DNA of 21,529 bases from a virus. Below are positions 8,159 through 21,419 of the stretch, one piece after another (positions within the stretch are counted from its first letter, which is position 1; each line of letters begins with the position of its first letter). The DNA lies in IMG/VR virus record IMGVR_UViG_3300042914_000290, positions 1-21,529 of that record; one strand, 5' to 3'. The notes beneath the pieces are model-generated. The model saw only the letters and a list, made by a program, of their open reading frames with translations. It made no database searches and had not been told where the DNA came from. Both the position numbers and the translations under genes were made by a program.

Positions 8159-9682
8159 CTAGAATGAACCTCTATTAAGGTTTGTTAAAGCGGTACGACC
8201 CAAACCTGCAGAGCCGCTAAATGAACCTAACTCAAGTTCTTTTAACCGCTGACGTGCACGTTTAGCAGAAGCAAGTCCTTTAAATTCTTCTTCTTCTGCT
8301 GTTGTTTGGGTATAGTCAATACCTGCTTGTTTATAAATATCTGCCAAAGTTGTAGTGCGTGGCAAACGTTCTGCAATTGAGCCGTATCCAATACGTGCCC
8401 GTTGCAAATCAACGCCATATTTCTCTAAGTCAGTAACTCTACTAAGGTCTACATTCATACCAAATTGCTCTGCAGCAGAACCAATCTCAGCCCTAGTAAC
8501 TTTAGCCTCTAGTTCTGGTAGTATTTCTTTAGGATTTAACACATAAGCAAGAGCATCTGCATCTGTTATATTATAATACTTACGTAATTGAGCCAAAATT
8601 GCAGGGTCAGAATTTTGAAGTCTTTCAACTCCAAGCACCAATCTTTTACCTAATTCTGTATTAGATATATCATTACCAATAAGATTAGCAAATTGACCAC
8701 GTGTAGCAAGACGCTGTACGCCATACTGACGTAGGGTTTCAGAATAAGCACGTTCCTGTCTTAGGTAATCAGACTCCTCAAGAGCATTAAGACCTCTTGC
8801 TCTACGCTCTTCATTACCAGCAAAACGTGCTTTATACGATGGCAATTGACGCAACTGAAGAACTAACTGATTAGCACCTAGTTTAGGATTTAAAAGTCCT
8901 GCTTGAATATAATCTATAAGTTCTTTTAATTCACTGTCATTAAAACCATACGAACGCATAGTTGCTTCAATAAGAGCAAAGGCATCGCGCCGCTCATTCA
9001 TTGCTGTTTCTTCAGCAATTTTCTGAGCCTGTATCTTGTCAAATTCTTCCTTTGACATAGGTACATCTTCCCACTCACCGTAAGAAAATGCTCCTGTTGC
9101 AGAATTGAAAAACTTAGCACGGCGTTTCTTAAAGTCTTTACTGTATTCGTACTCTACAAATTGTGTTCCGCCGCCACCGCCTGGATTAAAATCAGGGTCT
9201 TTTTCTTCTGGACCTTCATATTCTCCACCCTTGCCATCGGCAAGAATTGGAATACGAAATCCAGCGCGACCTGGTTTATAACGAAGAATAGTTCCTGCTT
9301 TAGGAAAAGTATTGCCGTCGGTTTTGTTTCCGTCAGTTTTATTGCCATCCGTTTTATTTCCATCTGTTTTATTACCATCTGTACTAGGTGGAATAATCGG
9401 CTCAAAAGGAAATTCTGATTGAACACCAGCAGGAATAGGAGCACCCATAGATGCTTCTTCAGCAATACGTACTGCAGAAGGATTAAAAGAGCCAGGAATG
9501 CCAGGAGCATTTCTTAGATTAATATCTGTTGTATACGCAAGAGCATTACGCATACGCTTTTGTTCTTCATCTAAATCTTCAAATGCTGTTGTAGTAGGAA
9601 ACTGCGCTGCCTGAACCATCTGCTGTGCATTACTAATGCGCTTTTGTTCTGCTAAATCATCATCTGTTAAATATCTAGGCAT
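8159..9682 (-). CDS. Putative internal virion protein, 507 aa
   Basis: An upstream GTG (9700) is in frame, but the ATG at 9680-9682 is preceded by GAAGGTAGGA and shares a base with the preceding TAA (TAATG), so it is chosen. Residues 1-95 are helical and charged. A pentapeptide tract TDGNK follows (about residues 101-124), then a glycine-rich linker ending GGGGG near residue 172. The C-terminal 300 residues are helical: ERRDAFALIEATMRSYGFND, then YSETLRQYGVQRLATRGQFA, LIGNDISNTELGKRL, LRKYYNITDADALAYVLNPK, EIGSAAEQFGM, and a C-terminus with FSGSAGLGRTALTNLNRGSF. From memory, this C-terminal block, including the Ser/Gly-rich SGSAGL...GSF ending, occurs in virion proteins of actinobacterial phages. 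It is likely a minor structural or ejected protein; the biochemical role is unknown. Confidence 0.72.
   Translation of the reverse strand: MPRYLTDDDLAEQKRISNAQQMVQAAQFPTTTAFEDLDEEQKRMRNALAYTTDINLRNAPGIPGSFNPSAVRIAEEASMGAPIPAGVQSEFPFEPIIPPSTDGNKTDGNKTDGNKTDGNKTDGNTFPKAGTILRYKPGRAGFRIPILADGKGGEYEGPEEKDPDFNPGGGGGTQFVEYEYSKDFKKRRAKFFNSATGAFSYGEWEDVPMSKEEFDKIQAQKIAEETAMNERRDAFALIEATMRSYGFNDSELKELIDYIQAGLLNPKLGANQLVLQLRQLPSYKARFAGNEERRARGLNALEESDYLRQERAYSETLRQYGVQRLATRGQFANLIGNDISNTELGKRLVLGVERLQNSDPAILAQLRKYYNITDADALAYVLNPKEILPELEAKVTRAEIGSAAEQFGMNVDLSRVTDLEKYGVDLQRARIGYGSIAERLPRTTTLADIYKQAGIDYTQTTAEEEEFKGLASAKRARQRLKELELGSFSGSAGLGRTALTNLNRGSF
9311..9385 (-). repeat. Five tandem 15-base repeats encoding TDGNK
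   Basis: Five consecutive 15-base units encode (TDGNK) four times and a final TDGNT. The units differ at synonymous third positions (for example GTC against ATC and GCC against TTCC forms), so the peptide is kept while the DNA drifts. The tract joins an N-terminal helical domain to a glycine-rich linker and probably acts as a flexible hinge. Copy number may vary between related phages. Confidence 0.9.
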
Positions 9683-11172
9683 TATCCTACCTTCCCCCAC
9701 ATCTTAAGAAGGGTGTCTAAGAATCCAGCAGCGCTTTCATTTGCTTTCTTTGTAAACCGCCAAGCAGGATTAGAACGTACAGCCATAATGTAATCATTAA
9801 TTCCTGGTAGTTTATCCCCACTTAATGCTGCTTGAACATCTGTATCAAATAAATCAATAGCGCCTTCGGCTAGTTCTAATTCATCGGCTTTAAGTTTCAT
9901 AAATTGAGAACCAATGTCTTTGACTTTTAAACCACCTTCAATGTATGGGGCTAAGGCTTTATAGGTTGCACGTGAGGCTAATTGAATAGTTCTTTTCTGC
10001 TCATCTATAGAGCCGCCTGGCAAAGATGCTTCGGCTGCTTTCATCTTTAAATCTTCATCACTAATTCTTACGCCATACTCATAGGCATAACCTTTTAGTT
10101 TGGTATAGTTATCACCTATATCACCGCCAGCATCTTGTAGGTCTATAGGCTTTACATTTCTAATACCAGTACTAATGACCTTATCTTTATCCATAGCGCC
10201 TTTAGTAATAAAACTAATGCGCCATTCTTTAAGCAACTGCTCAGATGGCATCTGAAAACCAGTACTGGTGCTAACCGTTTTACCAGTAATAGGGTCATAA
10301 GTAGAAGTACTTTGACCCATACGCTTCATTTCTTCAGAGCGTACTTTTTCCCAATATGCCTCTGCTAGTTCCTTAACATTGTCTACAAGTTTAGGGTCAC
10401 CAACCTGTATCTGTACTTCACGCATAAAGTCAGCAATAGCATCTGCTTTGAGGGTAAAGTTTCTAGTAGATGTACTGGTGCTTTGGCGACCTGGTAGCGG
10501 GGTTCTGCTTGTAAGCCAAGAATTAATATCATAAAAACCAGAAGAATTTAATTGGTTTCTATTAACATTCTCTGCACCAGCAGAAAAGTTATTGGCGCTA
10601 ATTTCGCCAAGTGCTCTACGTAGCGCAAATACAAACTCTGTATCTTTATCAGTTACTGGACCGCCACGAAGTGAGCGTTGAAATGCATCATCTGATTTAT
10701 AGTAATCTTTTAATTGGCTTTTCCAATAAGTAACATTGCCAGGATTGCGCTGTATATCTTTGATAATTGACTGCAATATTTCTTCACGCGGAACAATAGT
10801 AAAGCCATTACCATCAATAGATGGCAAAACAACTACAGGTGTAGGTGTCTTTTCCCCGTATTCAGGAAGCCTTGCGGTTACATAAGGCGTCTGCCCTACT
10901 TCAGCATCGCCTTCTTGAATATTTAAACTACCATCAGTAAAGATATTCCAGTCAGTTCTTACTTTGCCAGACTGTGTACGAGTAGTTGTTTCTACTGGTT
11001 TAGTCTCTACTACTCCTTGTTGTGTAACTGTAGGAGAAGATGGCGTAGGAGTGCCGATGTTTAACTTATTCCAAAGTTCAGTATCTTTAATAAAGGCTGC
11101 ATCTCCACTGGCACCCTTAGGATAGTCTGCACGTTTTGGTCTAGGACTACCTTTACTTACCTTAGGGGGCAT
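9682..11172 (-). CDS. Putative internal virion protein, 496 aa
   Basis: ATG at 11170-11172, two bases after the stop of the giant gene. The N-terminal 120 residues are low-complexity, rich in Pro, Thr, Lys (MPPKVSKGSPRPKRADYPKG, PTPSSPTVTQQG) and probably disordered. From about residue 120 the protein is helical with EEILQSIIKDIQRNPGNVTY and FVFALRRALGEISANN. Two Ser/Thr runs (GRQSTSTSTRNF, MGQSTSTYDPITG) interrupt it. The last 100 residues contain ATYKALAPYIEGGLKVKDIG, LELAEGAIDLFDTDVQAALS and NPAWRFTKKANESAAGF. From memory, this order (a Y..LAP.I..GL.V.DI helix, a LEL...DL segment, and a P.WR.T..A end) recurs as the C-terminal domain of structural proteins in actinophages. It probably acts with the neighbouring 507- and 1851-residue proteins inside the particle or in DNA delivery. 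Confidence 0.72.
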   Translation of the reverse strand: MPPKVSKGSPRPKRADYPKGASGDAAFIKDTELWNKLNIGTPTPSSPTVTQQGVVETKPVETTTRTQSGKVRTDWNIFTDGSLNIQEGDAEVGQTPYVTARLPEYGEKTPTPVVVLPSIDGNGFTIVPREEILQSIIKDIQRNPGNVTYWKSQLKDYYKSDDAFQRSLRGGPVTDKDTEFVFALRRALGEISANNFSAGAENVNRNQLNSSGFYDINSWLTSRTPLPGRQSTSTSTRNFTLKADAIADFMREVQIQVGDPKLVDNVKELAEAYWEKVRSEEMKRMGQSTSTYDPITGKTVSTSTGFQMPSEQLLKEWRISFITKGAMDKDKVISTGIRNVKPIDLQDAGGDIGDNYTKLKGYAYEYGVRISDEDLKMKAAEASLPGGSIDEQKRTIQLASRATYKALAPYIEGGLKVKDIGSQFMKLKADELELAEGAIDLFDTDVQAALSGDKLPGINDYIMAVRSNPAWRFTKKANESAAGFLDTLLKMWGKVG

Positions 11173-11174
11173 TA

Positions 11175-14100
11175 CTAATCACCAGGCTTTCTTACGATTG
11201 TTAGTGGAGTGTTATAAGACTTATCTAGTAATGGACGAATAATCCCAGACCAGGCTTCTGACAAGATAGCATTTGTGCTAGCAAGTTTATTTAATCTTTC
11301 ATAAGCAGCATCAAGTTGTTGCTGCAATACGGTATTGCCCATATACTGATTATCAACAGTATTGCTTTGTGTAGCAATAAGCAATTCATTGGATGCTCTG
11401 ACCATTGTTTCCAGCAACTTCTTATTAGTCTCTGAAAAACCAGCAGGGTATTCTTTCTTATTAACTATGTTTTTTAACTCTGCAAACTGGTCACGCAGAC
11501 CTTCAACAGTCACAAATCCACGTGTACCAAACACACTTCTAAGTAAAGGATTGGTATTAAGTAGGCGTTCTTTTTCTGCATTAGCCTTATCCCGAACTTC
11601 TTTGCGGTAATCAACAAAGTTTCTATTAGGATTATTAGGGTCATTAAGTAGTACATCTACATTCTTGTCATACTGATAGTACTCAGACATTAACTTTGCA
11701 ACCGCAGTACGCTCTATATATTCCTTTAGAGCCTTGTTATTCCAGTCAAATGGATTCTCATTTGGTGGCAACAAGTCTGCTGCTTGCATATAAGTAATGA
11801 CCTTAGGGTCATACTCACCAATATTAGGAGCAAAAGCCCAGGCTGCAGTGGGGTATTTTTCAATAAACTTCTTGTTAGTAATAGCCCAATCTAAAGTCTC
11901 TTTGCTGTAGTTAATAGCAACCTTAGACTCGTTAAGTCCTTTAGATACCTGGAATATCAATTTGCCTGGTCTATATTGTGCGTGTAGTGACACAGCCACT
12001 GAATACGGGTCTTCAATAACAAACCCATTCTCTTGATTAAACTGTAGTAACCCTCTGAGAATATCTCCGTATTCTTTAGTAAGAGTAACTACTTGGTTCT
12101 TACGCAGATACCCAGGTATTCCTGGTTGACCTGGTTGCAACGGCGCACCAAAGATTGTATTAAAAGCAGCCTTCTGGGCTAGTACGTTTGCAGTCTGTAT
12201 ACGCCATTCATCTAAAAATTCTTGAGCCTTAGATGGGTCGTATTCACCTTTATCATTTAAAAAGTCTGCAGGAGTCTTGGCTGTTTCAGGGTTATACTGC
12301 ATATAACTAATAGCCTGATACGCAGCAATTACTCCTTGATTGTCTTTATACTCTCCTACAAAGGCTTTGTAGTAGTTAGCCAGTGCTGGCGGAATAGTTG
12401 CTCGGAATAGGTTTGTATTATCACTAACCTCACCAAGTAGAATATTATCTATAGATAAACCAAAGTTATAAATCTCTTTAGACTGTAGTTTAGTTCCAAG
12501 ACCTACAAGCAAATCACGGATACCAGTAACAGGTATAGCAATATTAGGACCAGTAAATGTATATAAACCAGCGCCTTCTGAATATGAAGGGTTAAGTAAA
12601 GATACCTTCATCGTGTATTGATTCCACTCAGCCTGCTTAAAGAAACCCCAATTGCCATCTTTAATACCCTTATATGCTCCAATTGCTGCATATGGTGGGT
12701 TAGCCAACATAACAATTGCTGGTGCTACATCCTGCCAAAAGACACCATCGTTAGGAATAACAACATACTTGTTACCATCCTGGTCATCATAGGTAATACC
12801 ACTACCATCAGTAGCGTGGCTAAGATGACCTAATCTCCAAGGTATAGAAACTGGATGACGTGCTACCCAACGTATTGCTCTCTTAGCAAAGTCTTCTGTA
12901 GCACGGATAAATCGCCCTACTACACGCATATTGAATGCTAGTTGTGAACGAACCTGTGGGTTATCAACATACTTTAAAATTGTATTAGAAGAATTGTGGC
13001 GTGCTTGGTTAGCCATAATACCTGCTGCTTGAATAGCAGCAATATCAGCATCTGAACCATTTTCAATCAATGTCTTTGTTAACATTTCTTGGTCTGGTTT
13101 AAGTTTAGCCCGTTCATCTAAAACCTTAAGACGGTAAATATCTGAACGAATAACATCATTAACTTGACGGTCCATAAACTCATAACCTTTAACCATCATA
13201 CGGTCAACAAAACCTTGTTCAGGAACTACTCCTAGGTCATCAAAGTTAATATCTGTTTGTATCTGACCTTTAATTGGGTAGTTTGCTGTAGCCTTTTCAA
13301 ATTCTTCAAAGGTTATATTGCCAATCTGAGTAGAAGGCTGTACTTGTTTTCTTTCCCATTCACGTCTACGTTTAAGTTCAGCAGAAGAAACTGTGGTTGT
13401 AGCGCCACCAGCGCGTTCGCGCTCAAGCATCTTCTTTTCTTCGTAGTAAGAAGCCTTGCCTACCTTTTCTTTAGCAGTCCAAAGTTTATCTTGGATTAAT
13501 TTTAGTAGGTCTTCGTTAAATGCAGTGCCACTTCCGTGAAATACATAACGCATTTCTTTTGCAGCATTAACAATAAGCGCTTCGCTAATATCCCGTTCAG
13601 ACATACCCATTGCTCTAAGGGTAGAAACTTGACCAAATCGGTCATTAAACATCTGCGCTATATCAGGCTTTGGATTATCTACATTCCATCCAACCCGACT
13701 CATACCGTACTTAACAAAATTATCTACATCTTTAGCGGTGCGTAGTGCATTATTCTGAACAAATAGGTCACCAAAATTAATACCATATTTTTCATTCTTT
13801 GCAAACAGTAAATAAAAGTATCTATAGTGAGCAAGAGTTCTTTCGGCTGTTTTAAGTTTATTAAACTTATCCCATACTGGCTTGCCAAGGATTTCCAGAC
13901 CCTTTGCTTCAATAGCCAAAGTTAGTGGGCTTGCGCCATACACCTGTCTTGCTAGATTAGCCTCAGTTACTGCCTCACCAAAAGTGGCACCAATGATAGA
14001 ACCAACCATTGCATCGGCAGCATTGCCATTTAGCATATAGTCTTCTACTAACCATTCAACTTCTTGGTCATTAAGTTTACTACCATATTTAGCAATTGCT

Positions 14101-16730
14101 GCTCGTACTAAATATTCTTCAGGACTCATACCAAAAAACTCATCAGCAGTAATAAGTTCTGTCTGTCTAACAACACGACCAGTATCAGGGTCTACAAACT
14201 CAGTCTGCACTTCTTTCATAGCACGGTCTGCTTGCCGTTGCTGTGCACTTCTAAACTTTGCTGGATTTCTACCAATTACATCAAGGAATTTTTCTTTAAT
14301 AAAACCTTGACTTATGTTAGTACCGCTATATGCTGCGTGGATATTGCTTAACTGCCGTCCCTTGCCGTATAGCAAATCAAATAACATTGCTGGAGTAGTA
14401 ACGTTAGCAAGAACTGTTGCTTCATCAAAGGCTGCTTTAATACCTAACTTAGGAAATAGTAGCCCAAAAGAAAAACCTCGGTTAATAGCCCTAGAAACAG
14501 AGTTGTTGGTTGACCAACCATAACCCATATACCCAAGTTTTTTAATTAAATCTTTGTATACAGGAGTCTTACCATACTTAAATTTAGTAGCACCAACAGC
14601 ACCACCAATTCTGTCATAAATATCTTTAATGACAGTATCAAAAGGTAGTAGTGTTATACCTTCTGTGGTATGAAATAAAGCAGAAGGTCCTGGTGGAATA
14701 GGATTTACGTCATCATAGGCTTTAAAAACATCAGAAGTTTCTACAGTGTAGTCAACTATGCTGGCAGTTTTCTCTGGCATATATCTACCCTGCAATACAG
14801 AGTTGCGATAAGCCAAACCTTCGGCTGTAAAAGCAGCCCCAATAGAGTCAAGATAGATTTTATCCAAGTTAAACATAATATTAATTCTGTCAGTAACAGA
14901 ACTTTTCTTATATAACTGGGCAAGAAACTCAGCACGCATTTTGTCACCCGTAACTAACCGAGCATAGTCACGGAAAAATGGTAAACCTTTATCAACTAAA
15001 GCATCTGACCAAAAAATTTGAGCGCCTTGAGAAGGCATACGTGCCAATAATTCACCAAAAGCGCGGTTTAATTCTTTTGCTTGGTACTTTTTAGGCTTAG
15101 TTAAAGACTGTAATAAAGTTTCATTACGTTCTATCTCGGCTAATATCTCTGGAGTTACAGCCTCATCTGGCGCAATGGTAGGACGCTTAAGAATTTCTTG
15201 CTCTATATCTGTCCAATTTTTAACAGTCTGCTCATCCAGTTGTTTTTTACCAATTACTACATCTCTGTCTAGTCCCTGGAAAATTTTTGTAGCAGTACTA
15301 CGCATACCATTGACCATACGGCGTTGACGATTTTGAAGCGCAACGCTTTCTTCACGCATAGTAAGTAGATTATTTACTTTACCATTGATGATATAGTTGG
15401 TATATTCACCAGTTTCAAGAAAAGATTTATAAGTATCTAGGTCAGTAACTAGTACTTCTTCGCCTTCTTTTTTAACGGTAGCCTTGGTTAAAATACCAAG
15501 CAATACATCATCATCATATTCAGGATGGTCTAAAGAAATCTTTAACCGAGCATTTGCTGCAGCAATTGTTTCTTTATTATCTAAAGCATCACGATAAACG
15601 TTAACGTCTTGAATAAAAGATTCATTCTTTGCAACCCACTGTGGTTCCTTAAATAAATCATCTAGTCGTGCTACCTTTGTCTGCAAGTCCACAGCATTGG
15701 CTAATTCTTCTGCAGTTCTTGCAGCCTTCATAGCATTAAGGCTACGGCTGCCACCCATAGTCATATAGGTCAATGGGTCAATATAAAACGTAGCAGCAAT
15801 ATCTAATCCTGTAGAAGGGTCACCATATCCCTGACCAAACAACTTTTCAGTCTCAAACTCACCAGTTTTTTCATTACGTTTAACACCACGCATACCACCA
15901 ATAGATAAAACCGCAGATGCTAAAGTATCTTTAATAGTGTCTTGAGTTGTTGGATTTTCTTTAAAAGGAGCAAATCCATTAGCCCAGTCTGTAATAAGAG
16001 TACCTAGATTAATTTTCTTACTACGGTATCTATCTATTACTTCTTGAAATTCTGGAGTTCCAACTTTAAAGAAAGCATTAGCCATATCATCATCAATGGC
16101 TCCGTACTCTTTAAAAATTTCATAATAACTTTTACCGTCTATAATACCACGGGCTAATACACCAGTAGCGTTATTATATTCTTCATCTAATTTTTCAATA
16201 CCTGGTTGGTTCCATTTATTGTAACCATTCCAGCCATCTTTCCAAAAGTCTTTACTTGTTATTTGTTCTAGAGCAGACGGTTCTCCCATTGCTGCTCTGA
16301 CAACTTCACGTTGCTTATCTGCAACGTTCATAAGATTAAGGGCAGTATTTTCAACAGCACCAATCCAAGCACTACCAACTTTATTCAAAGTACGTAGTGG
16401 GTCAGATATTAATTGAAGCAGATAATTATTTTCTTTAGAAAATACTTTTTGTAAGAAACTCTTATCAGGTTTTGCATACTCAGCCTCTGGGTTAATATCC
16501 AATAAACCTCTTTGAATTACTGGACTAAGGCGTGCAAAACTATCCCGTGCTGCCCGAAGGTCTGGGTCAGAAGATAAAAATGAATTTAAGTTCATTAGTT
16601 TTTCTAATGAGTTTAAAGTAGCACTTTCTTCTGGCGTCCAGTTGCCAGCGGTACGAACCTGAATAAGTTCGGGAGAATTTTGTAATGTCTCCACATTAAT
16701 AGTAACGGGAACAAAGTCTCTAATTGACAT
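11175..16730 (-). CDS. Giant virion protein, probable internal or ejected protein, 1851 aa
   Basis: ATG at 16728-16730, three bases after the preceding stop; no clear Shine-Dalgarno is present, so coupling to the upstream gene is likely. The product is the largest here and is mostly helical and soluble-looking. Seen in order: KENNYLLQLISDPLRTLNKV near 100; an alanine-rich pair of helices with SAVLSIGGMRGVKRNE near 270-290; a long charged helical middle; PGPSALFHTTEGITLLPFD near 680; MRYVFHGSGTAFNEDLLKLI near 1060; RVVGRFIRATEDFAKRAIRW near 1280, followed by GSGITYDDQDGNKYVVIPND; and LYTFTGPNIAIPVTGIRDLL near 1400. The weakly hydrophobic stretches could be membrane-interacting. No polymerase, lysozyme or protease motif was recognised. 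Length and place among virion genes fit a protein packaged in the head and ejected with DNA, like T7 gp16 or N4 virion RNA polymerase in size only. The role is inferred. Confidence 0.7.
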   Translation of the reverse strand: MSIRDFVPVTINVETLQNSPELIQVRTAGNWTPEESATLNSLEKLMNLNSFLSSDPDLRAARDSFARLSPVIQRGLLDINPEAEYAKPDKSFLQKVFSKENNYLLQLISDPLRTLNKVGSAWIGAVENTALNLMNVADKQREVVRAAMGEPSALEQITSKDFWKDGWNGYNKWNQPGIEKLDEEYNNATGVLARGIIDGKSYYEIFKEYGAIDDDMANAFFKVGTPEFQEVIDRYRSKKINLGTLITDWANGFAPFKENPTTQDTIKDTLASAVLSIGGMRGVKRNEKTGEFETEKLFGQGYGDPSTGLDIAATFYIDPLTYMTMGGSRSLNAMKAARTAEELANAVDLQTKVARLDDLFKEPQWVAKNESFIQDVNVYRDALDNKETIAAANARLKISLDHPEYDDDVLLGILTKATVKKEGEEVLVTDLDTYKSFLETGEYTNYIINGKVNNLLTMREESVALQNRQRRMVNGMRSTATKIFQGLDRDVVIGKKQLDEQTVKNWTDIEQEILKRPTIAPDEAVTPEILAEIERNETLLQSLTKPKKYQAKELNRAFGELLARMPSQGAQIFWSDALVDKGLPFFRDYARLVTGDKMRAEFLAQLYKKSSVTDRINIMFNLDKIYLDSIGAAFTAEGLAYRNSVLQGRYMPEKTASIVDYTVETSDVFKAYDDVNPIPPGPSALFHTTEGITLLPFDTVIKDIYDRIGGAVGATKFKYGKTPVYKDLIKKLGYMGYGWSTNNSVSRAINRGFSFGLLFPKLGIKAAFDEATVLANVTTPAMLFDLLYGKGRQLSNIHAAYSGTNISQGFIKEKFLDVIGRNPAKFRSAQQRQADRAMKEVQTEFVDPDTGRVVRQTELITADEFFGMSPEEYLVRAAIAKYGSKLNDQEVEWLVEDYMLNGNAADAMVGSIIGATFGEAVTEANLARQVYGASPLTLAIEAKGLEILGKPVWDKFNKLKTAERTLAHYRYFYLLFAKNEKYGINFGDLFVQNNALRTAKDVDNFVKYGMSRVGWNVDNPKPDIAQMFNDRFGQVSTLRAMGMSERDISEALIVNAAKEMRYVFHGSGTAFNEDLLKLIQDKLWTAKEKVGKASYYEEKKMLERERAGGATTTVSSAELKRRREWERKQVQPSTQIGNITFEEFEKATANYPIKGQIQTDINFDDLGVVPEQGFVDRMMVKGYEFMDRQVNDVIRSDIYRLKVLDERAKLKPDQEMLTKTLIENGSDADIAAIQAAGIMANQARHNSSNTILKYVDNPQVRSQLAFNMRVVGRFIRATEDFAKRAIRWVARHPVSIPWRLGHLSHATDGSGITYDDQDGNKYVVIPNDGVFWQDVAPAIVMLANPPYAAIGAYKGIKDGNWGFFKQAEWNQYTMKVSLLNPSYSEGAGLYTFTGPNIAIPVTGIRDLLVGLGTKLQSKEIYNFGLSIDNILLGEVSDNTNLFRATIPPALANYYKAFVGEYKDNQGVIAAYQAISYMQYNPETAKTPADFLNDKGEYDPSKAQEFLDEWRIQTANVLAQKAAFNTIFGAPLQPGQPGIPGYLRKNQVVTLTKEYGDILRGLLQFNQENGFVIEDPYSVAVSLHAQYRPGKLIFQVSKGLNESKVAINYSKETLDWAITNKKFIEKYPTAAWAFAPNIGEYDPKVITYMQAADLLPPNENPFDWNNKALKEYIERTAVAKLMSEYYQYDKNVDVLLNDPNNPNRNFVDYRKEVRDKANAEKERLLNTNPLLRSVFGTRGFVTVEGLRDQFAELKNIVNKKEYPAGFSETNKKLLETMVRASNELLIATQSNTVDNQYMGNTVLQQQLDAAYERLNKLASTNAILSEAWSGIIRPLLDKSYNTPLTIVRKPGD

Positions 16731-19151: not shown

Positions 19152-19155
19152 TCCT
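19152..19155 (-). promoter_or_regulatory. Ribosome-binding site that sets the portal start
   Basis: AGGA on the minus strand overlaps the terminase TAG stop and lies six to seven bases before the ATG at 19146, giving a stop-restart junction. The longer alternative start at 19194 has no such site. The same TAGGA overlap of stop and ribosome-binding site is seen before the genes at 5680 and 3077. Confidence 0.65.
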
Positions 19156-21037
19156 ATCCGTATGTCTGTTGCCATTGCTCTGCAAAGGCTTCATCTAGAT
19201 TAATACTTATACGTCGTTCTTTCTGCGCTCTTGTTGCCCAGCGGTTGTTAGCCCACCTTTGCACGTTAGAGTTTTGCTGCATAAATTCACGACAGCGAAT
19301 AACACCAAACCATAACGCCATCACACAGTCAGTCTTACCTCTGGTATCAGGCTTCCAGGTTATAAGTTGTTGAACTAAAGCCTTAAGCCCCTCAGAAGAT
19401 TCAGTACTTGGGAGTTCAAGGATGTTGTTTTTCTGAAACTTTCCGTCACGAGAAGTTCCGAACAGCGTTGACATTGAGGCAACTCCAAAGTTTGTGTCCC
19501 ATTTGTTTTTGCCTGTGAAGTGAGAATTAAGTCGTACACCGTGAGAAGCAAGCCAGTTTCGTAGGTCGTCGTCAAGGGAGTACGCTTTTTGGTGTGCGTT
19601 GATTTCAACTCGGAACTCTTGCGGTTTATACGCCAACGTAAAATCTTCAATTGCTTGCCTAATCTTTTGTGGTGTTGGTTCTGCCATATTCAAACAGTCC
19701 AGCACATAAATCTTGCCATCGTGTCTGTTATATGTCATAGCAACAAAAGCAGCGTTACCAGACATAGCAGGGTCAAAGCCTATGACGGTGTAACCTTCAA
19801 CAGCGTTAGGATGTCCTGCAGCACCAGGTCTTAGGTTGCCACGCTTACGCATTCCGTTGATAGAACCTTGTACTAACTCAGGCGGGAAGATAGAGTCTTC
19901 TGTGACATCTTCTTGCTGGTAGACTAGTGCCCACGTAGATGGAGTCACCTCTCCTCTACGTCTGGCTAATGTCGGTCCGTCCCATTTCGGGTATAGCCCT
20001 TGCTCGTCAGGTGTTTCATCATCGCCATCCCACGGAGTGTCCGACTTTGCCCAGAGAGTAACCCAGTCTTTCGGCTTCTCCCCATACTCCAGAACAGCAG
20101 GCATACCCATATACGTAAATGGGCTTTTGCCCCCTGACCAATGCTTCGGGTCACGGAGTTCTTTATAAAAGTCTGACGGCGCAATTCTTGTCCCTACTAC
20201 TAGCAATTTACCATTTTTGCCAAGACGGGTAATAACTTCTTTTTGTAGCCAGTTAATCTGCTTCTCATACTCGTGAGCGTTAGCGGTAGTGATGCAGTCG
20301 TCTAGAATGATGAGGTCGGCACGGGCACCGTAGATTTGACCCCCCATACCGAGCGCCTGAATAGTCGGGTCTTTTTCCGATGAATTACGGGCATCGCTTC
20401 CCAAGTAGACGGTATCAACACGCCAGGTATCAGAGTCTTCTTTCCATCCCCCTTCTGGTCCGAATGTTGTCTGCAACTTCAACCAGCGCGGGTGGCTTAA
20501 CCTTTGTTTAATTGCGTACACGAATTCCCGTGCTTTGATAAGCGTCTTAGAAACTACGATGATTCTAACGTTGGGATTAAGTGCGATGCGGTAAGTAGAG
20601 TAGTTCACCGTAATCACGGTGGACTTAGCGTGCTCAGGTGGCACGTTTATGAGTAAGCGGTTTGGGTCGCCTTTTTCATAAATCATATTAGGGTGTAGCC
20701 AAGAAGGCTCCCTATCTTCCAGCAGGTCTACCCAGTCTTGATGGTGGGGAAAGACCCTCTGGTCTAAAAACATTTCAGAGAACTGCGGGAAGGATATATC
20801 CTCACGGGCAATCCCCAAAGCCTTAATAGAACGCTCTTTGGCGTTCTCCTTTGCCTCAGCCAGATTGGCGGCAAATTCTTTATCTCGCATCATCCAGATG
20901 CGAACAGTGTCGGGCTTTTTGCCCAACTGCTCCATAGCCCTGTGTACAGACATACCCTCGGCTACAAGGGCTAGAACTTTAGCCTTGGCTTCAGCCATAG
21001 CCTTTGTCCTAGGATTGTTAGCCTTCTGAAAAGTCAC
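19154..21037 (-). CDS. terL: Terminase large subunit with N-terminal helix-turn-helix domain
   Basis: This is the DNA-packaging motor. The frame starts with GTG at 21037 (GGGA seven bases upstream); an in-frame ATG at 20998 with AGGA eight bases upstream is an equally good or better start and would remove 13 residues. Residues about 15-65 (VLALVAEGMSVHRAMEQLGK, then VRIWMMRDKEFAANLAEAK) look like a helix-turn-helix of the kind found in small terminase subunits. The ATPase has Walker A VPPEHAKST (132-140), Walker B LIILDD (242-247) and the coupling motif VVGTR (280-284). The RNase H-like nuclease has FDPAMSG (D422), VLDCLN (D447), RVEIN (E478) and KTDCVMALWF (D570). Total length of 627 is slightly above the usual 450-600, explained by the extra N-terminal domain. 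No separate small subunit gene is visible in this window. Confidence 0.94.
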   Translation of the reverse strand: MTFQKANNPRTKAMAEAKAKVLALVAEGMSVHRAMEQLGKKPDTVRIWMMRDKEFAANLAEAKENAKERSIKALGIAREDISFPQFSEMFLDQRVFPHHQDWVDLLEDREPSWLHPNMIYEKGDPNRLLINVPPEHAKSTVITVNYSTYRIALNPNVRIIVVSKTLIKAREFVYAIKQRLSHPRWLKLQTTFGPEGGWKEDSDTWRVDTVYLGSDARNSSEKDPTIQALGMGGQIYGARADLIILDDCITTANAHEYEKQINWLQKEVITRLGKNGKLLVVGTRIAPSDFYKELRDPKHWSGGKSPFTYMGMPAVLEYGEKPKDWVTLWAKSDTPWDGDDETPDEQGLYPKWDGPTLARRRGEVTPSTWALVYQQEDVTEDSIFPPELVQGSINGMRKRGNLRPGAAGHPNAVEGYTVIGFDPAMSGNAAFVAMTYNRHDGKIYVLDCLNMAEPTPQKIRQAIEDFTLAYKPQEFRVEINAHQKAYSLDDDLRNWLASHGVRLNSHFTGKNKWDTNFGVASMSTLFGTSRDGKFQKNNILELPSTESSEGLKALVQQLITWKPDTRGKTDCVMALWFGVIRCREFMQQNSNVQRWANNRWATRAQKERRISINLDEAFAEQWQQTYG

Positions 21038-21089
21038 AGAACTGTCCCATCTACAATAGTCAGTACAGTCAGAACAGACAGTTAGAAAC

Positions 21090-21165
21090 AGATAGTAGAT
21101 ACAGTCTGTAACGCAAGCCCTAAAGGCTTGCTACTGTACGGGACTATAAATAGTCCCTACTATCT
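21090..21165. other. Three-way-junction inverted-repeat structure
   Basis: Twenty-eight perfect base pairs arrange as a three-way junction. Outer stem: AGATAGTA (21090-21097) with TACTATCT (21158-21165). Second arm: TACAGT (21100-21105) with ACTGTA (21133-21138), extended after an internal loop by GCAAGCC (21113-21119) with GGCTTGC (21125-21131), loop CTAAA. Third arm: GGGACTA (21140-21146) with TAGTCCC (21151-21157), loop TAAA. Junction strands are two, one and zero bases. The structure is the same in form on either strand, and it would lie in the 5' leader of the terminase message. It is not a tRNA: loop sizes and invariant bases do not fit. Confidence 0.65.
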
Positions 21166-21309
21166 ATTAATCCGTTCAAACAGCCATTCCGAACGCTTTT
21201 TTAGCAAAGTGTTACCTAACTCACAGAATAGGCTATTTAAAATAGGACATAATAGGACAGAGCAGGGGCATAGGGTTTGTACGGGAAAATAGTTTCTGTA
21301 GTTACTCAT

Positions 21310-21318
21310 ACTATAACA
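21310..21318 (-). promoter_or_regulatory. Candidate extended -10 promoter for the structural operon
   Basis: Minus-strand TGTTATAGT contains an extended -10 TG, one base, then TATAGT (five of six to consensus). No good -35 box is present at 15-18 bases. Transcription would begin near 21303, giving a leader of about 265 bases that contains the three-way-junction structure. Sequence match only. Confidence 0.3.
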
Positions 21319-21336
21319 GCACAGATTTAAACAGTC

Positions 21337-21419
21337 TGGGGTCATTCAGACCCCATCCTGTTTGGCTGTCGCCGTACTGCTACAGTCTGGTGGGAGACTG
21401 GTAGGCAGTCTGTCTGCCT
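21337..21419. repeat. Cluster of three hairpins with CAGTCTG arms
   Basis: Hairpin one: TGGGGTC (21337-21343) with GACCCCA (21349-21355), loop ATTCA. Hairpin two: CTA-CAGTCT (21380-21388) with AGACTG-G-TAG (21395-21404), loop GGTGGG, one bulged G. Hairpin three: AGGCAG (21403-21408) with CTGCCT (21414-21419), loop TCTGT; it overlaps hairpin two by two bases, so the two compete. None is followed by a clear T-run on the minus strand, so they are not obvious terminators. Confidence 0.6.

Follow-up and report, generated by a model that had tools for sequence, protein, structure and literature searches.

The DNA analysed here, referred to as the window, is the whole of a 21,529-nucleotide stretch of the IMG/VR record IMGVR_UViG_3300042914_000290. 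Its minus strand carries terL (19154-21037), which has a GTG start and encodes a large terminase of 627 amino acids with an HTH-like N-terminus (PHROG 38, E 8e-68; Pfam Terminase_6C and HTH_23). terL heads a co-directional late operon, a layout seen in the relatives G004 and G002, and in G004, which is complete, the operon extends for about 28 kb. Complete relatives have a divergent genome, with the early genes running opposite to the late operon, and the element described below is part of the intergenic control region that separates the two. Phages of this group have genomes of about 39 kb and are represented mainly by IMG/VR contigs. In the phage collection the closest records are OX376640 and OX376641, whose TerL proteins are about 64% identical to that of the window; they belong to Planktophila phages E7 and F5, the first phages to be isolated on 'Ca. 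Nanopelagicales' (PMC10202952). Elsewhere on the minus strand of the window are a gene for a protein with about four tandem KTDGN repeats (9154-9700) and one for an 1851-aa virion-region protein (11175-16730) with no PHROG or Pfam match. A tRNA search of the window found none.

Upstream of terL, the 76 bases at 21090-21165 fold on the minus (terminase-sense) strand into a single three-way junction, and the three nested stems of the original prediction were found where it had placed them. The outer stem of 8 bp (AGATAGTA/TACTATCT) pairs 21158-21165 with 21090-21097, and there is an inner stem of seven pairs, one of them G-U (GTACAGT/ACTGTAT, minus strand). The two hairpins, both on the minus strand, are H1 (GGGACTA-TTTA-TAGTCCC, 21140-21157) and H2 (GCAAGCC(U)-UUA-(G)GGCUUGC, 21113-21131). 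The minimum free energy of the 76-mer is -33.2 kcal/mol, compared with -17.2 ± 2.8 kcal/mol for shuffled sequences (z about -5.8), and none of 200 shuffles was as good; the plus strand reaches -30.9 kcal/mol (z -5.8). Comparison with shuffled controls, suggested originally as a check, thus confirms that the folded stretch adjoining the terminase gene is real.

Most of this energy (-20.5 kcal/mol) comes from H1 and H2 alone. When both hairpins were held fixed and shuffling was confined to the linkers, the native fold was equalled by 47 of 2000 sequences (z -2.3), so that the junction is only mildly unusual, although an outer stem of at least 8 pairs is rare, with two of 2000. In addition, the fold varies with the point at which the RNA is cut. 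Once downstream sequence and the terminase start are added, the junction-closing strand is instead paired with the ribosome-binding region, the longer RNA having an energy of -51.8 kcal/mol with this pairing and -48.2 kcal/mol when the outer stem is forced to form.

A promoter-like block upstream of terL

The region was compared among 162 distinct terminase leaders of actinophage relatives, 59 from the window's clade and 103 from a sister clade. The most constant feature is a two-part block on the minus strand. Its upstream half, the -35-like GTTCGG (21189-21194), is near-invariant in all 162 leaders and stands at a fixed distance from a -10-like half (21165-21170), which is TTAATA in the window's clade and TTATCT in the sister clade and would serve with it as a promoter. 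The arrangement GTTCGG-18 bases-TTAATA has the same spacing in the 59 window-clade leaders, and GTTCGG-19 bases-TTATCT is present in most of the 103 sister-clade leaders. A pattern scan of IMG/VR with the sister-clade form gave 108 testable matches, every one of which had terL downstream on the same strand (108/108). Each complete genome examined has a single block, at the site upstream of terL, other one-mismatch matches being at the level of shuffled sequence; the two copies in G011 arise because the ends of that contig overlap.

The window-clade form of the block includes an inverted repeat, CGTTC/GAACG. In 48 of the 103 sister-clade leaders GAAC is changed to CAAC, CTAC or CGAC while GTTC is unchanged, indicating that the block is conserved as sequence and not as an RNA stem, as for a site read in DNA; a bulged stem could still form in leaders of the CAAC type. 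A small ORF that overlaps the block (21160-21345) was rejected as the cause of its conservation: third codon positions are equally invariant, the spacing in the sister clade is off by one base and the ORF has no family match.

The first G of H1 (21157) lies 8 nt past TTAATA, and a gap of 8 nt between a -10-like element and the start is usual for bacterial promoters. The geometry of the block and H1 therefore fits, by analogy, a late promoter from which transcription would start at H1. No consensus sigma-70 promoter coinciding with the block was found. Both isolated relatives, E7 and F5, have a gene for a sigma-70 factor (PMC10202952), and in G004 there is a weak sigma-70-like match (E 0.008) in a protein with no Pfam match.

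That the region is transcribed in the direction of terL is suggested indirectly by tRNA genes in the sister clade, located near the 5' side of terL and on its strand (plus in these contigs). These are for Arg (L249:1518-1591), Ser (L252:324-410) and Trp (L250:2302-2374), and those of L249 and L252 sit inside the leader, between the block and terL. A sub-threshold tRNA-like match is also seen at L275:699-766. Furthermore, in sister-clade stems G-U pairs outnumber A-C combinations by 11 to 2 on the sense strand. Together, the tRNA genes of L249 and L252 and the G-U excess give modest support to the leader region acting as sense RNA.

The block could instead be a double-stranded DNA site, either for packaging (pac- or cos-like) or for a regulator such as the HTH of TerL, in which case H1 and H2 would be incidental or accessory. 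The presence of one block per genome, always beside terL, its inverted repeat in the window's clade and the HTH-like N-terminus of TerL are all compatible with this, as is a clustering of contig ends in the intergenic region. These ends are scattered, however, from about -50 to -700, without piling up at a single homologous position, and the points at which complete contigs circularise are arbitrary; the ends were therefore rejected as evidence for cos, and their analysis gave no evidence of physical genome ends. Since a DNA site also leaves unexplained why H1 pairing is kept through whole-sequence change (see below), this interpretation is considered unlikely. Contig ends are enriched upstream of terL in both clades (for example, six contigs end 365-377 nt upstream), where modules are exchanged in a mosaic fashion, and the enrichment probably reflects assembly breaks in a hypervariable region.

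Other motifs occur around the block. Just upstream of it, in a sister-clade contig (L083:2875-2892, plus, the terL strand), is a terminator-like hairpin (AGCCCTGTGACCAGGGCT followed by TTTATATATA), possibly an attenuator or an insulator of the late operon. Between the hairpin and the block, L083 and several of L205-L284 have GCCCCCC, the sequence complement of GGGGGC near their terL starts. On the minus strand of the window, a hairpin at 21337-21355 (TGGGGTCATTCAGACCCCA) lies beside GACCCCAGACTGTTTAAA, and a similar motif is found in the sister clade too, about 150 bases before the block.

Conservation of the hairpins and of the junction

A stem in the place of H1 (score ≥ 6) is present in 45 of 59 window-clade and 89 of 103 sister-clade leaders, compared with 15 to 18% of shuffles. 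The remaining 14 of the 59 fall below the score limit, so about a quarter of window-clade leaders are without a clear H1. Neither the stem nor the loop of H1 is conserved in sequence. There are 62 distinct stems in the sister clade, where the hairpin begins within about ten bases past the block, and in most leaders the pairing survives wholesale replacement of the sequence. H2 is perfectly paired in 58 of the 59 window-clade leaders across 17 different sequences (406 cells counted, none of them a mismatch), with compensatory changes on both sides at pairs 2, 5, 6 and 7, four of the seven counted pairs. A tree-based covariation test found one significant H2 pair in the window's clade, the rest of the signal being masked by the exchange of H1 as whole blocks. 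Significant covariation is also seen in an AT-rich third hairpin of the sister clade.

The outer and inner stems, which create the junction, behave differently. Of 53 distinct window-clade leaders, eight have an unbroken outer stem and eleven an unbroken inner stem, and compensation is absent. The upstream arm of the outer stem, AGATAGTA (21158-21165, minus), which lies between the -10-like half-block and the putative start, is swapped en bloc in most relatives for CTATATAG, GTATATAG or CAGTATAG, and the downstream arm, TACTATCT (21090-21097, minus), which overlaps the strand complementary to the ribosome site, has no matching change. Alternative closing stems (TACAGTAG/CTATTGTA, GTACAGT/ACTGTAC and GATAGT/ACTATT) were rejected, as each is fully paired in a minority of relatives. 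Many chance pairings are to be expected here because the region is rich in CTGT and ACTAT repeats.

As a conserved unit, therefore, the three-way junction does not stand: in the sequences compared it appears to occur only in close relatives of the window. The original prediction had looked to relatives for compensatory changes in all the stems and had named stems broken in close homologues as evidence against it. Compensation was indeed seen at four pairs of H2, and H1 keeps its pairing through sequence replacement; the outer and inner junction stems are mostly broken and uncompensated. A well-scoring fold of a single sequence can thus be partly real, with two stems kept and the closing junction not.

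The poor conservation of the junction bears directly on the suggestion that it is a packaging RNA or a small packaged RNA like the pRNA of phi29. The isolated 76-mer resembles the phi29 packaging RNA in its three-way-junction shape but differs in that its junction stems are not conserved, the motor is of another kind (TerL being a terminase-type motor) and no pRNA match is found in Rfam 15 up to E 10. This role is strongly disfavoured and must be regarded as extremely improbable. More generally, Rfam searches of the window (at the gathering threshold), its relatives (at E 0.5) and the leader (at E 10) returned no relevant family, and the leader has no DNA similarity to phage records. The papers searched, with partial coverage, hold no earlier description of this leader.

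The free variation of H1 is also pertinent to a role in cis-acting antitermination, in which the hairpins would contact RNA polymerase and enable read-through of the late operon of about 28 kb. The put RNA of HK022 similarly places tandem hairpins close to where transcription of a long phage operon begins; it acts in early operons and contacts polymerase (PMC9378689). The element studied here likewise heads a very long operon, has tandem hairpins near its presumed start and, in the sister clade, follows closely on a terminator-like hairpin upstream of the block. In contrast to put, it belongs to a late operon and varies freely in both loops and stems. A specific contact with polymerase should retain some bases in H1, and the leader was found to have no downstream terminator, making such a function quite improbable.

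Predicted pairing with the terminase ribosome site

Immediately after H2 is a strand, GTTACAGACTGTATCTAC (21095-21112, minus), which is almost invariant in the window's clade and complementary to the ribosome-binding and start region of the terminase, GTAGATGGGACAGTTCTGTGAC (21033-21054, minus), predicted to be occluded. For the window the duplex of these two has a predicted energy of -20.1 kcal/mol, and the minimum free energy fold of the putative transcript consists of H1, H2 and this ribosome-site helix. The start region has a mean unpaired probability of 0.23, the third lowest among 21 genes of the window. Across the window's clade, predicted accessibility of the start region averages 0.21, compared with 0.35 with shuffled leaders, and complementarity is -15.5 kcal/mol, compared with -7.2 kcal/mol for shuffled strands. 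Occlusion was not seen in the sister clade (0.41 versus 0.43), and the two strands of the helix do not covary in the window's clade, 178 of 200 permuted pairings being equal or stronger. Control of terminase translation is therefore proposed at the level of the window's clade and not of the family.

Leaders that occlude ribosome sites are familiar as riboswitch-like elements and as autoregulated leaders of phage and ribosomal-protein genes. The likeness lies in a nearly invariant strand complementary to the ribosome site and start codon; the element differs in having no known ligand or protein, in being confined to the window's clade and in the lack of covariation between its strands.

Since 21095-21112 can pair either upstream, giving the junction and a freer ribosome site, or with the ribosome site, giving an off state, the leader may be a bistable translational switch in which a signal or the kinetics of folding makes the choice. 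The two states of the window are close in energy (-48.2 and -51.8 kcal/mol), and an analogous arrangement, in which B and C are alternative partners for a strand A, occurs in the H2 region of the sister clade in several unrelated modules. There, in L216, L217, L245, L211 and other leaders, the pairing is pseudoknot-like or mutually exclusive, and complementarity counts pick out a strand complementary to the 5' part or the loop of the hairpin (for example, AACGGATTAACC / TCCGTT / GGTTAATCC), an arrangement compatible with either a pseudoknot or a two-state switch. Most window-clade relatives lack the upstream partner, however, and if transcription starts at H1 the upstream arm of the outer stem is outside the RNA; a switch of this kind is accordingly doubtful.

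Taken further, the A-B/A-C pairing of the sister clade and the choice between upstream and start-occluding pairing in the window's clade could be read together. In a large family of freshwater actinophages, a modular RNA switch behind a dedicated late promoter might then govern the late operon, modules being exchanged while the two-state logic is kept. This reading draws on complementarity counts and is offered as a speculation with a small chance of being correct.

The leader as the proposed start of the late message

The reading we favour, held with little better than even confidence, is that the element is the start of the actinophage late transcript, consisting of a promoter-like block, the 5' hairpins H1 and H2 and, in the window, an occluded ribosome site. 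Of the functions first suggested, that of a structured 5' leader for the terminase gene fits best, as the pairing of H1 and H2 is kept and terL follows on the same strand in every testable match of the scan. The comparison of leaders shows that the block is conserved, that H1 and H2 keep their pairing without conservation of sequence and that a strand complementary to the start region is present in the window's clade. Across the family, the conserved unit appears to be a promoter-like site with hairpins after it that have kept their pairing while their sequences changed.

According to this model of a structured late leader, the block at 21165-21194 (minus) would be the promoter of the terminase-first operon, and the first transcribed base would be the G that opens H1 (21157). 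The upstream arm of the junction (21158-21165) would then be absent from the RNA. H1 would form the extreme 5' end, followed by H2 and, in the window's clade, by a third helix, formed between the strand downstream of H2 and the terminase ribosome-binding site with its start codon. The 5' hairpin may protect the long message, and translation of the terminase may be held low until the third helix is opened by translating ribosomes, by co-transcriptional folding or by a factor.

Hairpins at the 5' end stabilise some bacterial and phage mRNAs, as in the leaders of ompA and T7 gene 10. The hairpin described here would resemble them in lying at, or a few bases from, the start of the transcript and in being selected for pairing and not for sequence; it differs in being followed by further hairpins and in having a start deduced from sequence. 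The papers searched describe no 5' stabilising hairpin in these phages.

The bacteria on which the related phages E7 and F5 were isolated, 'Ca. Nanopelagicales', are among the most abundant in freshwater (PMC10202952). The papers searched, which give partial coverage, contained nothing on how phages of this group switch on their late genes. The comparison yields one candidate late promoter per genome together with an RNA leader conserved in structure, and this leader could set both the stability and the translatability of the late message.
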